Shown here: positions 53,221 to 57,606 of the stretch, piece by piece
How positions within the stretch are numbered: the first letter of the stretch is position 1
Layout of the letters: every line of letters begins with the position of its first letter
Source: Marinifilum sp. D714
Lineage (GTDB): Bacteria; Bacteroidota; Bacteroidia; Bacteroidales; Marinifilaceae
NCBI RefSeq assembly: GCF_030851345.1
Contig: NZ_JALPNU010000013.1
Span: forward strand, 1-64,000
Direction: 5' to 3'
DNA: 64,000 nt
Notes under the pieces: generated by a model
Database searches by the model: none
Told to the model about the DNA's origin: nothing
Seen by the model: the letters and a program-made list of their open reading frames with translations, nothing else
Translations under genes and position numbers: made by a program

Positions 53221-53279
53221 CGAAAAAAGCCATCCGATTGGATGGCTTCTTCTTGCTCCCCCTCTAGGACTTGAACCTA
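53221..53279. repeat. Left direct repeat: terminator hairpin plus tRNA-Asn 3' sequence
   Basis: This 59-base block (a GCCATCC / GGATGGC hairpin, then the 3' part of a tRNA-Asn gene) is almost identical to 53631-53690 at the other end of the GIY-YIG gene, with a few differences. The two copies lie 410 bases apart. Confidence 0.8.
53222..53247 (-). terminator. Terminator-like hairpin of the tRNA-Asn remnant
   Basis: The stem AGCCATCC / GGATGGCT is followed on the minus strand by a T-run. It duplicates the hairpin at 53632-53658. Confidence 0.7.
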
Positions 53280-53310
53280 TCCCGAAGCCTCGGGACTGAT
53301 TAACAGTCAG
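53256..53310 (-). pseudogene. tRNA-Asn remnant carrying an inserted palindrome
   Basis: The acceptor 3' strand, T arm and anticodon stem-loop segments (GTTAATC context) of tRNA-Asn are present, but the stretch between T arm and anticodon arm is replaced by TCCCGAAGCCTCGGGA, a perfect 6-bp inverted repeat around AGCC. The D arm and the 5' acceptor strand are missing. The gene is dead as a tRNA. Its anticodon-arm bases also encode the last residues and stop of the GIY-YIG protein. Confidence 0.75.
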
Positions 53311-53630
53311 GAGTAATCTTTAGTAAAAGATCTTTGAATATTTTTTTGCCTTCGTTTGGAATCAATAGTTTTTCAATGAATTTACGACTTTTCATATTTT
53401 TGATTTTCCGTTCCATTTTTAAGGCAATAGTCTTGTTGTTGCCTACTTCAAATGACTTTTTAAGTTCCCAAGGTAGGTGTTTAGAAGTGTATTTACTGTC
53501 TATAGGATTGTTATGCATGTACAATCTTTTGGAAGTATTTTCAGTATAGCCTATATAGTATTTGTCTGAAGAAACTGAATAGAGTATGTAAATATGAAAC
53601 ATGAATTGAATTTAGGAATAATTCATGAAA
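53280..53630. mobile_element. Putative GIY-YIG mobile insertion between tRNA-Asn-derived direct repeats
   Basis: A single-gene segment lies between two near-identical repeats of terminator plus tRNA-Asn 3' end, the layout left by integration at a tRNA gene or by tRNA-templated insertion. The only gene is a 100-residue GIY-YIG nuclease. No integrase, transposase or second gene is present. The element status is inference. Confidence 0.5.
53300..53602 (-). CDS. Small GIY-YIG nuclease
   Basis: This 100-residue single-domain nuclease of the UPF0213/UvrC N-terminal type has the catalytic motif HIYILYS...YYIGYT, Arg in KRLYMHN and the acidic Glu in ALKMERKIK. Its last three codons (Pro-Asp-Cys region) and TAA stop are read from a truncated tRNA-Asn sequence, indicating that the gene entered the tRNA cluster secondarily. 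Such proteins are abundant in Bacteroidota and are usually encoded alone; their activity and mobility are little known. It may cut at the inserted palindrome or the tRNA gene. Confidence 0.85.
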   Translation of the reverse strand: MFHIYILYSVSSDKYYIGYTENTSKRLYMHNNPIDSKYTSKHLPWELKKSFEVGNNKTIALKMERKIKNMKSRKFIEKLLIPNEGKKIFKDLLLKITPDC

Positions 53631-53690
53631 CGAAAAAAGCCACCCAAATTGGATGGCTTCTTTTTGCTCCCCCTCTAGGACTTGAACCTA
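53631..53690. repeat. Right direct repeat: terminator hairpin plus tRNA-Asn 3' sequence
   Basis: This 60-base copy of 53221-53279 forms part of the intact tRNA-Asn gene at 53667-53740, so this is the original side and the left copy is the fragment. Confidence 0.8.
53632..53658 (-). terminator. Terminator of the tRNA-Asn array
   Basis: The stem AGCCACCC / GGATGGCT (one mismatch) is followed on the minus strand by a T-run, 9 bases past the third tRNA. Confidence 0.7.
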
Positions 53691-53740
53691 GGACCCCCTG
53701 ATTAACAGTCAGGTGCTCTAACCAGCTGAGCTAAGGAGGA
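53667..53740 (-). tRNA. tRNA-Asn (GTT)
   Basis: On the minus strand the 74 bases fold into a cloverleaf: acceptor TCCTCCT / AGGGGGA with one G-T pair, D arm, anticodon arm with loop CTGTTAA (anticodon GTT) and T arm with GGTTCAAGTCC. The discriminator is G and CCA is not encoded. It is the last of three tandem copies. Confidence 0.95.
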
Positions 53741-53788
53741 GTGTATAACTCCTAATTTATTTTTAAACCCATTAAGAAAGGTTTTTTG

Positions 53789-53862
53789 CTCCCCCTCTAG
53801 GACTTGAACCTAGGACCCCCTGATTAACAGTCAGGTGCTCTAACCAGCTGAGCTAAGGAGGA
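53789..53862 (-). tRNA. tRNA-Asn (GTT), second copy
   Basis: The sequence is identical to the copy at 53667-53740 as far as can be seen. The 48-base spacer to that copy resembles the other spacer, so the tandem unit is about 120 bases. A GGAGT-ATA-ACTCC dyad lies at the 5' side of the gene, as for the others. Confidence 0.95.
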
Positions 53863-53907
53863 GTATAACTCCTAATATATTTTAAAACTCATTAAGAAAA
53901 GTTTTTG

Positions 53908-53981
53908 CTCCCCCTCTAGGACTTGAACCTAGGACCCCCTGATTAACAGTCAGGTGCTCTAACCAGCTGAGCTAAGGAGGA
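53908..53981 (-). tRNA. tRNA-Asn (GTT), first copy of the array
   Basis: The cloverleaf is identical to the other two copies. This is the promoter-proximal one (the promoter is at 54047-54077, minus strand). Confidence 0.95.
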
Positions 53982-55632: not shown

Positions 55633-56295
55633 ATGATGATGACGAAGCGCTATTTATTCTTGTTTTTAGTTCTGATTTTTTCTTTTGAATCTTATTCGCA
55701 GTACTACAAAGATCAAAACTATTTTGTTGGTGGATCAATTGGTTATCAATTTCCTCTTGGCGATTTTGGAGATCAGGCAAATGGAGGTCCAAACTTTCGT
55801 TTGACTGTTAGAAAAATGCTGAACAAGAAGTTAAGTGTTGGAGCAGAATTGTCTTTTAGTTTGTTGGGACAAGATAAATTTTGGGATGGAAGCCATTTGG
55901 GAAGCTATGATGTAAACTACAATATTGGTTCTGCATTGTTACGTGCATCATACTATTTTGATGCTTGGGACAGGGATTTTAGGCCTTATGCCTCACTTGC
56001 TTTTGGATATTTCTATTATCGGAATGAAATAGATTATACTGCTTCTTCTTTAGGTTCGAGCAATAGCAAGCGAACAATAACTGAAAATAAAGTAGGTTTG
56101 ACTCCAAATATTGGCTTTTTATATCACATATCTGATACATGGAGCTTTGATATGAATTTAAGGTATACCTTTATTCCGAACTTTCCTGATTCAGTTACGG
56201 CAAAAGATGAATATGGGGAGGATTATTCATATTATTTAGGATTCGATAAAATCTCACTCCCCGAATTATCAATAGGTTTCTTTTACAGATTTTAA
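55633..56295 (+). CDS. Outer-membrane beta-barrel protein
   Basis: This 220-residue protein with a signal peptide (about 1-22) has the OmpA/OmpW-like barrel pattern (FVGGSIGYQFPLGDFG, KKLSVGAELSFSLLG, DFRPYASLAFGYFYYR, SIGFFYRF at the C-terminus ending in Phe). It is a porin-like or structural barrel with no specific family. The three Mets at the start (MMMTK) allow alternative starts. Its stop overlaps the stop of the convergent kinase by four bases. Confidence 0.78.
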   Translation: MMMTKRYLFLFLVLIFSFESYSQYYKDQNYFVGGSIGYQFPLGDFGDQANGGPNFRLTVRKMLNKKLSVGAELSFSLLGQDKFWDGSHLGSYDVNYNIGSALLRASYYFDAWDRDFRPYASLAFGYFYYRNEIDYTASSLGSSNSKRTITENKVGLTPNIGFLYHISDTWSFDMNLRYTFIPNFPDSVTAKDEYGEDYSYYLGFDKISLPELSIGFFYRF

Positions 56296-56906
56296 AATAG
56301 TCCGTGGATCTTCGCTTCAACTTTGTCCACAATACTATTTAAATCAGCTGGATTTTCGAGGAAATCGATGTTGTCAGCATCAACAATTAGCAAATTGCCA
56401 TTGTTGTAGTTGGAAATCCAGTTTTCATATCTGTTATTTAAATTTTTCAAATAATCCAATCGGATCGTTTCTTCATAATCACGACCTCTTTTTTGAATTT
56501 GATTAACAAGGGTAGGCACCGAAGATCGCAAGTATATTAATAAATCGGGTGCTTGTACCATCGAACTCATTAATTGAAACAGGTTACAATAGTTTTTAAA
56601 ATCGCGTTCCGACATTAAACCCATATCGTATAGGTTAGGAGCAAAAATTTTGGCATCCTCGAAAATGGTTCGATCCTGCACCACATTTTTTCCCGAGTTA
56701 CGGATATCCATTATCTGGGTAAAGCGACTTTTTAGGAAGTAAATCTGCAAATTGAATGACCAACGCTGCATGTCGTCGTAAAAATCATTCAGGTACGGAT
56801 TTTCATCCACATCCTCGTAATGAGCTTCCCATTTGTAATGTTTGGCTAATAGTTCTGTTAAAGTAGTTTTTCCTGATCCGATGTTACCAGCTACGGCTAT
56901 ATGCAT
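56292..56906 (-). CDS. Deoxynucleoside kinase (dAK/dGK-type)
   Basis: This 204-residue salvage kinase has the P-loop GNIGSGKTT at 8-16, the DRT motif (VVQDRTIFED) and the lid-type RGRDYEETIRLDYL. Homologues phosphorylate deoxyadenosine, deoxyguanosine or deoxycytidine. It is the second of two tandem paralogues, about 70 percent identical by hand count, with an 85-base spacer. The substrate split between the copies cannot be told from sequence. Confidence 0.9.
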   Translation of the reverse strand: MHIAVAGNIGSGKTTLTELLAKHYKWEAHYEDVDENPYLNDFYDDMQRWSFNLQIYFLKSRFTQIMDIRNSGKNVVQDRTIFEDAKIFAPNLYDMGLMSERDFKNYCNLFQLMSSMVQAPDLLIYLRSSVPTLVNQIQKRGRDYEETIRLDYLKNLNNRYENWISNYNNGNLLIVDADNIDFLENPADLNSIVDKVEAKIHGLF

Positions 56907-56991
56907 TGTGTTATAATTATCAGTTATGAATTAAGAATCAAAAAATTACAAGTTCATTTTCAACTCATAATGATTAATTCATCATTTATAA

Positions 56992-57606
56992 TTAAAAAAG
57001 TCCATGAAGTTGAGCATCAATCTTAGTGATAACGGAGCTCAAATCTTTGGGTTGATTTAGGAAATCAATATCATCAACATCAATGATTAAAAGCTTTCCG
57101 TTTGTATAACCATTAATCCAGGCTTCATATCTTTCGTTCAATCTTTTTAAATAATCCAGTCGAATGGTTTCTTCGTAATCACGACCTCTGGCCTGAATGT
57201 GTTCTACTAAAGTAGAAATAGAAGCTCTAAGATAGATCAACAAATCAGGAGGCTGAATTAATGAACTCATAATATCGAATAGAGACAGGTAATTGTCAAA
57301 ATCTCTTTTCGGCATTAAATTCATTGATTCAAGGTTTGGAGCAAATATGTATGCGTCCTCGTATATTGTTCTATCCTGAATGATATCTTTTCCAGATTCG
57401 CGTAAAGCCAGAACCTGATTGAATCTGCTATTTAAAAAATGGATTTGCAAAGCGAACGACCAACGATTCATATCATCGTAAAAATCATTTAAATATGGAT
57501 TATCATCCACATCTTCGAAATGAGCTTCCCAGCCGTAATGTTTTGCCAATAATCCAGCCAGTGTTGTTTTCCCGGCACCAATGTTTCCCGCTACAGCAAT
57601 ATGCAT
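56992..57606 (-). CDS. Deoxynucleoside kinase, paralogue of the adjacent gene
   Basis: This 204-residue paralogue of the gene at 56292 has the P-loop GNIGAGKTT, IIQDRTIYED and RGRDYEETIRLDYL. The two kinases probably form a heterodimer or divide the purine deoxynucleoside substrates, as the Lactobacillus dAK/dGK pair does. It is the upstream copy. Confidence 0.9.
   Translation of the reverse strand: MHIAVAGNIGAGKTTLAGLLAKHYGWEAHFEDVDDNPYLNDFYDDMNRWSFALQIHFLNSRFNQVLALRESGKDIIQDRTIYEDAYIFAPNLESMNLMPKRDFDNYLSLFDIMSSLIQPPDLLIYLRASISTLVEHIQARGRDYEETIRLDYLKRLNERYEAWINGYTNGKLLIIDVDDIDFLNQPKDLSSVITKIDAQLHGLF

Follow-up and report, generated by a model that had tools for sequence, protein, structure and literature searches.

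A very small GIY-YIG nuclease unit in tRNA genes of Bacteroidota that looks like an undescribed type of mobile DNA

Introduction

How does a gene of 100 codons come to lie in an array of tRNA genes, bracketed by pieces of the tRNA itself? The question is raised by a locus of Marinifilum sp. D714, contained in a stretch of 64,000 nucleotides that was analyzed as a whole and is hereafter called the window. A preliminary description, made from the letters alone, had noticed two near-identical blocks (53221-53279 and 53631-53690) on either side of a single 100-residue GIY-YIG gene whose stop codon lies in a tRNA remnant, and had proposed a minimal nuclease unit that targets tRNA genes without an integrase. 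Our analysis of this locus and of its relatives suggests that the unit looks like an undescribed and very small type of mobile DNA.

Results

The features first noticed at the locus were borne out. An alignment of the two blocks has 3 mismatches and 1 gap in its 60 columns, the GIY-YIG gene is the only gene between them, and its TAA stop codon falls within the anticodon loop of the remnant. Read along the minus strand (Table 1), three intact tRNA-Asn genes of 75 nt each are followed by a terminator, the nuclease gene, the 3′ part of a scarred tRNA-Asn and a second terminator, with 63 bp in all between the third tRNA-Asn and the nuclease gene, terminator included; the block on the left of the forward strand is therefore downstream of the gene in transcript order. 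The nuclease is the sole gene of the unit. No integrase, transposase or recombinase is adjacent to it in the window, where its neighbors are housekeeping genes, and an Rfam scan of the window recovered tRNAs only, the adjacent tRNA being uninterrupted. Elsewhere in the window (56292-57606), two similar deoxynucleoside kinase genes of 204 aa each are adjacent in tandem.

Table 1. Positions in the window of the tRNA-Asn array, the inserted unit and its parts
Feature	Positions	Strand	Basis
Intact tRNA-Asn (GTT), first of array	53907..53981	-	ARAGORN and Rfam
Intact tRNA-Asn (GTT), second	53788..53862	-	ARAGORN and Rfam
Intact tRNA-Asn (GTT), third	53666..53740	-	ARAGORN and Rfam
Inserted unit, 411 bp	53280..53690	-	Measured from one point in the repeated tRNA 3′ end to the corresponding point in its other copy; the repeat leaves the exact borders ambiguous
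Terminator hairpin 3′ of intact tRNA, unit-side copy	53631..53661	-	Sequence and repeat alignment
Leader, terminator to nuclease gene	53603..53630	-	Sequence
GIY-YIG nuclease gene, 100 aa, stop inside tRNA remnant	53300..53602	-	PF01541 E=1.6e-12; conserved catalytic residues; AlphaFold2 pLDDT 94
tRNA-Asn remnant, anticodon arm (gene positions 28-43)	53296..53311	-	16/16 match
Palindrome TCCCGAGGCTTCGGGA in place of variable region; unit end	53280..53295	-	Sequence
tRNA-Asn remnant, T arm and acceptor 3′ strand (gene positions 51-75)	53255..53279	-	25/25 match
Second terminator hairpin, host-side copy	53223..53252	-	Sequence and repeat alignment

The copy downstream of the gene had been taken for a broken tRNA. 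A hairpin-bearing copy is indeed present, but it is better read as the end of the unit joined to the old 3′ end of the host gene, which the remnant of T arm and acceptor strand would represent. The 3′ end of the third tRNA-Asn, to judge from filled and empty sites in relatives, would have been supplied by the unit. On the best reading, then, the unit has restored the intact tRNA, and the scarred copy is something other than a damaged tRNA.

The relatives had been singled out as the place to look for empty sites, and a comparison within the genus found them at three tRNA loci. At the Asn locus G001 is empty and G004 carries an insert of 420 bp, with a host-side flank identical at 145 of 160 positions; at the Asp locus an insert of 384 bp is present in G001 and absent from G000 (flank 156/170); and at the Phe locus one of 375 bp distinguishes the filled G002 from the empty G001 (flank 324/330). 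The sequence of the intact tRNA is unchanged in the filled allele. Presence runs in opposite directions, since G001 is empty at Asn and filled at Asp and G000 is the reverse, which rules out an old tRNA pair that was damaged without any mobility. Moreover, at a second Phe locus, in G000 and G002, the unit-side terminator is of the type found at the first locus while the host-side terminator is native. This foreign terminator indicates that units move, and the arrangement of the two terminators defines the two sides of the unit, of which one carries a tRNA 3′ end plus terminator and the other stops at the hairpin. Mobility of the unit is well supported.

Copies of the 3′ end of the adjacent tRNA follow the nuclease gene in many genomes, and 68 distinct copies were collected among 100 tRNA loci. 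The hairpins in these copies substitute for pieces of the tRNA, namely the anticodon arm, the T arm or the variable region, and a separate terminator comes after them, so that the palindromes cannot be explained as mere terminators. The copies lack the 5′ acceptor strand, their stems are often broken, and some carry two hairpins, at the anticodon arm and at the T arm. When breakpoints are written in standard tRNA numbering as the last kept and the next kept base, the most frequent are (48,57), seen 13 times in Asp and Gly, and (26,44), which removes the whole anticodon arm and is seen 10 times in Ala, Asn, Met, Pro and Val. Others are (55,61), which removes most of the T loop (six times; Phe, Pro), (26,35) (five times; Gly, Ser) and (42,49), the loss of the variable region (four times; Asn, the window included). 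A single placement common to five isotypes was never matched in 20,000 random placement sets; this null is a simple one and takes no account of shared ancestry.

All 62 of the mapped hairpins have arms of the form CC[CG]...[CG]GG, and 33 begin with TCCCGA. In the genome of the window the pattern TCCCGA-N-TCGGGA occurs 36 times, compared with 1 occurrence of a reversed control pattern; together with the recurrence of the layout in dozens of genomes, this shows that the arrangement did not arise by chance. Most of these dispersed palindromes are not beside a GIY-YIG gene. The stems also vary between units of a single genome, with TCCGCC and TGGCGC both found in G224.

In the genome of the window, two tRNA-Thr 3′ fragments carrying TCCCGA hairpins lie at C50:148998-149307 (L113, L190), where a search of that genome found no GIY-YIG gene, and a tRNA-Gly array at C37:268-664 (L109, L189), in which no nuclease gene was found, includes two 5′ fragments with TCCCGATAGCTATCGGGA in the D loop. 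The TCCCGA palindrome is also embedded in other dispersed repeats of this genome, for example as TCATTCTGA[palindrome]GAAGAATCTG, as if the center of the repeat had been replaced (L017, L018, L020, L021, L104, L111, L116 and L119). Short units that have no gene exist at L028, L035 and L150; at the last of these (G070:C14:40522-43921), units of ~68 bp composed of a tRNA-Asn 3′ half and a hairpin lie between full units, and 11 palindromes are present.

Relatives of the window nuclease were found in 113 of 392 Bacteroidota genomes (E <= 1e-8), in a survey that started from the window protein and is hence centered on its clade. An intact tRNA or tmRNA gene lies within 700 bp in 77 of the 89 nuclease gene clusters, with the two sharing a strand in every case (77 same, 0 opposite), and in 54 clusters an RNA gene lies no more than 100 bp upstream. 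Several of the 12 clusters that have no RNA gene within 700 bp begin at a contig end, and five of them (L094, L095, L123, L135 and L150) contain tRNA fragments. At least 12 tRNA types are adjoined (Asn, Asp, Gly, Met, Ala, Val, Ser, Phe, Pro, Arg, Leu and Thr), in addition to tmRNA. Two or more nuclease genes stand in tandem in 32 of the 89 clusters, and in G332 the units repeat every 315 bp. Both expectations of the preliminary description, that similar GIY-YIG genes would be found beside fragments of RNA genes and that the palindrome would recur in the broken copy, were thus realized, and the idea of a minimal unit that occupies tRNA genes without an integrase has held up in view of the three empty sites and the wide spread of the family.

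Some loci depart from the common layout. An open reading frame lies between a 5′ tRNA fragment and an intact RNA gene, in mirror fashion, at L053, L126 and L145, and likewise with tmRNA at L059, where the nuclease gene abuts the 5′ end of the tmRNA gene and a 16-nt direct repeat of that end is present. At L169 and L170 the nuclease gene directly precedes the RNase P RNA gene and abuts its 5′ end, with what by eye appears to be an inverted piece of the 5′ end of the same gene upstream. No tRNA-like or tmRNA fragment was found 3′ of the nuclease genes at the tmRNA locus L154.

By its domain match, its catalytic Tyr, Arg and Glu and its fold, the window protein belongs to the GIY-YIG superfamily (PF01541). 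Members of the family are 73-117 residues long (median 89.5), and among 31 diverse members Y5, R26, H30 and E64 are invariant, with Y16 and G18 nearly so. In many proteins of the family the residues at the C-terminus, GGRPD or GGRPE for example, appear to be encoded by the tRNA remnant (L077, L088, L090, L153, L155, L156 and others), which would mean that their reading frames extend into the scarred copy. The predicted structure of the window protein (pLDDT 94) is one compact domain with a C-terminal helix and has no separate DNA-binding domain; its nearest solved folds are HIGLE and Slx1, followed by UPF0213 and the catalytic domain of I-TevI, all at modest E-values. Slx1 acts on branched DNA as a structure-selective nuclease, works with Slx4 in repair and, to our knowledge, is not mobile.

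The nuclease of G004, a genome of the same genus as that of the window, is 84% identical to the window protein. The nuclease genes of G000 and G004 have a dN/dS of ~0.12, and their dS of 0.81, compared with 0.25 for the neighboring kbl (one gene, by a simple method), is only suggestive of separate histories for the two genes. In a protein tree built from 92 columns, many forks of which are weak, 22 changes of tRNA type are required compared with 65 after shuffling (the minimum is 11), whereas host family changes 49 times. A nuclease lineage therefore tends to stay with its tRNA type. Transfer with target specificity explains this fidelity, and old vertical inheritance at fixed loci could do so as well. 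No relatives were present in 50,697 phage records. Relatives on Legionella plasmids are distant, and no tRNA is annotated in the stretch shown, but that gene table omits RNA genes.

The association is particular to this family. A sister family of small GIY-YIG proteins had no tRNA at any of 30 loci in the stretches fetched (Fisher p = 9e-19 compared with the window family), and the proposition that every small GIY-YIG gene sits by tRNAs is thereby ruled out. Many genes of the sister family (L004, L006, L044 and L192-L220) are instead bracketed by direct or inverted copies of palindromic repeats that are dispersed through intergenic regions, among them GTCATCCTGAACTTGTTTCAGGATC, GTCATTCCCGCGAAGGCGGGAATCC and GTCATTGCGAGCG..GAAGCAATC, and the sister nucleases may be mobilizing partners of these repeats.

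Discussion

The GIY-YIG superfamily is the only known class to which the nuclease of the unit belongs, and we file the unit under no known system because each candidate fails on a defining feature. Closest in function is SegB, a free-standing GIY-YIG homing endonuclease of the tRNA region of T-even phages (PMC13096335, PMC2988022), which cuts within tRNA genes and promotes both the inheritance of tRNA plus nuclease gene and their amplification in tandem (PMC13096335). Its reported motif, RAWTSGAAC (PMC13096335), reads as the reverse complement of the tRNA T-loop sequence GTTCSAWTY. As with SegB, the genes described here adjoin tRNA genes, lie outside any intron or intein and are present or absent at homologous sites (three tRNA loci). 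However, SegB is phage-borne and is reported to act through recombination over long flanks, whereas our units are chromosomal, encode proteins of 75-115 aa that consist of a catalytic domain with no separate DNA-binding region, and are each tied to one tRNA and its displaced, hairpin-scarred copy, across at least 12 tRNA types.

Other systems share one trait or another. Islands, phages and ICEs that use a tyrosine recombinase also insert into tRNA genes, restore an intact tRNA and leave a 3′ fragment at the far end, but they require the recombinase (PMC9897764), and they differ from our ~400 bp units, which have none and which show a hairpin in the displaced copy and form tandem arrays. RAYT/REP systems, in which the gene for an HUH enzyme is flanked by inverted REPs (PMC2817692), likewise link a small nuclease gene to short palindromes of which further copies are scattered through the genome. 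In our case, however, the enzyme is GIY-YIG rather than HUH/Y1, the Y1 genes of this genome lie elsewhere, and the palindromes lie on a single side of the gene, within the scarred tRNA copy, instead of inverted on both. Mobile group I introns with a GIY-YIG nuclease differ in that they interrupt their host gene and are removed from its RNA by splicing. A search confined to open-access papers found no description of such a unit.

We lean slightly towards the explanation that these are minimal selfish mobile units of ~315-450 bp that insert in tRNA genes and a few other stable-RNA genes, with an Slx1-like nuclease driving insertion by recombination. As far as sequence comparison reaches, the architecture, the empty and filled sites, the transfer of a foreign terminator, the match of nuclease clades to tRNA types and the conservation of the catalytic residues are established, and the following course of events may be envisaged. 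The order within a unit is tRNA 3′ end and terminator, short leader, GIY-YIG gene of 75-115 residues, internal tRNA remnant and hairpin. The nuclease would open the DNA of a tRNA gene, possibly at arms folded in a single-stranded or cruciform form, a substrate suggested by breakpoints at arm/loop boundaries and by the Slx1-like fold. A copy that already bears the unit would then serve to repair the break by homologous recombination, which would proceed through the repeats of tRNA and terminator. On insertion, the tRNA 3′ end of the unit would abut the 5′ half of the host gene to give an intact tRNA upstream, and the old 3′ end of the host would stay downstream of the hairpin as a non-functional copy. 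By standing in for tRNA arms that are liable to cutting or recombination, the hairpin may stop either from happening again, and repeated events on the preserved tRNA could generate tandem arrays.

The main difficulty for this explanation is that identical intact tRNA genes persist beside the unit in the same cell; the lack of a separate DNA-binding domain and a possible origin of the isotype fidelity in old vertical inheritance count against it as well. Because the intact tRNA-Asn genes survive, plain cutting of all of them would be self-destructive unless it is weak, regulated or structure-dependent. That these genes stay uncut is accounted for if the nuclease instead recognizes the palindrome of the scarred copy as the unit end and frees a single-stranded or circular unit, which then integrates by homology in tRNA 3′ ends, in the manner of REP-associated or IS200-type enzymes. 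Such hairpin-directed transposition, which we consider credible but doubtful, would agree with a unit end whose arms are alike across tRNA types, with the dispersal of the same palindrome and its presence in other repeats, and with the arrays of hairpin units that have no open reading frame. It is less easily reconciled with the many palindromes that have no GIY-YIG gene beside them and with the differing stems in G224; furthermore, four Y1 transposase genes in this genome could move palindromes.

A selfish nuclease is also open to the objection that ordinary homologous recombination through tRNA repeats could move such units too. Indeed, tRNA arrays recombine readily, and the tRNA and terminator repeats that flank the gene would permit its gain and loss, so that tandem duplication and recombination might have made and moved the units with the nuclease as a hitchhiker or an ordinary repair enzyme. 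We think this unlikely, given a constant nuclease family, orientation and set of hairpin scars by at least 12 tRNA types, a sister family that is never there, and catalytic residues kept under purifying selection. Still less probable is a tRNA-linked regulatory or toxin-like system whose nuclease has as its substrate either the tRNA or the tRNA-like 3′ untranslated region of its own mRNA. The linkage on the same strand and an mRNA that would finish in a tRNA-like fragment and terminator are what such a system would display, but copies devoid of the 5′ acceptor strand and often broken in their stems are not, empty sites are common, and the tandem arrays and the carried terminator indicate a mobile unit. 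Least probable of all is descent from a phage or integrative island that had integrated at a tRNA gene and has since lost its integrase. Such elements usually leave an intact tRNA together with a displaced 3′ fragment (PMC9897764). Against this origin, units in dozens of genomes measure ~315-450 bp and contain no gene but the nuclease, and the right fragment has a hairpin scar that site-specific recombination would not make. With no recombinase near the unit in the window and no relatives among the phage records, we reject a phage or ICE origin.

A more far-reaching version of the selfish-unit explanation can be put forward only tentatively, and we hold it to be rather improbable as a whole. 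In that version the units represent a class of mobile element that is new and perhaps the smallest of the autonomous ones. Folded arms of tRNA genes would be recognized by a structure-selective GIY-YIG nuclease acting on its own, which would drive both insertion and restoration of the gene. The same group of nucleases would also be the hitherto unrecognized driver of the palindromic repeats dispersed between genes (GTCATTCC..., GTCATTGCGA..., GTCATCCTGA...) that flank its sister family.

If the selfish-unit explanation is true, a gene of ~90 codons has colonized tRNA genes that stay functional, as part of a widespread mobile element that has no integrase, transposase or intron, and the 315-bp spacing of units in G332 means that it may rank among the smallest self-mobilizing DNAs. 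In Bacteroidota it would account for many small GIY-YIG genes and many fragments of tRNA genes, and it would connect such nuclease genes to dispersed palindromic repeats of unclear origin. It would also offer a test case for how a nuclease that targets essential RNA genes can nevertheless be tolerated.
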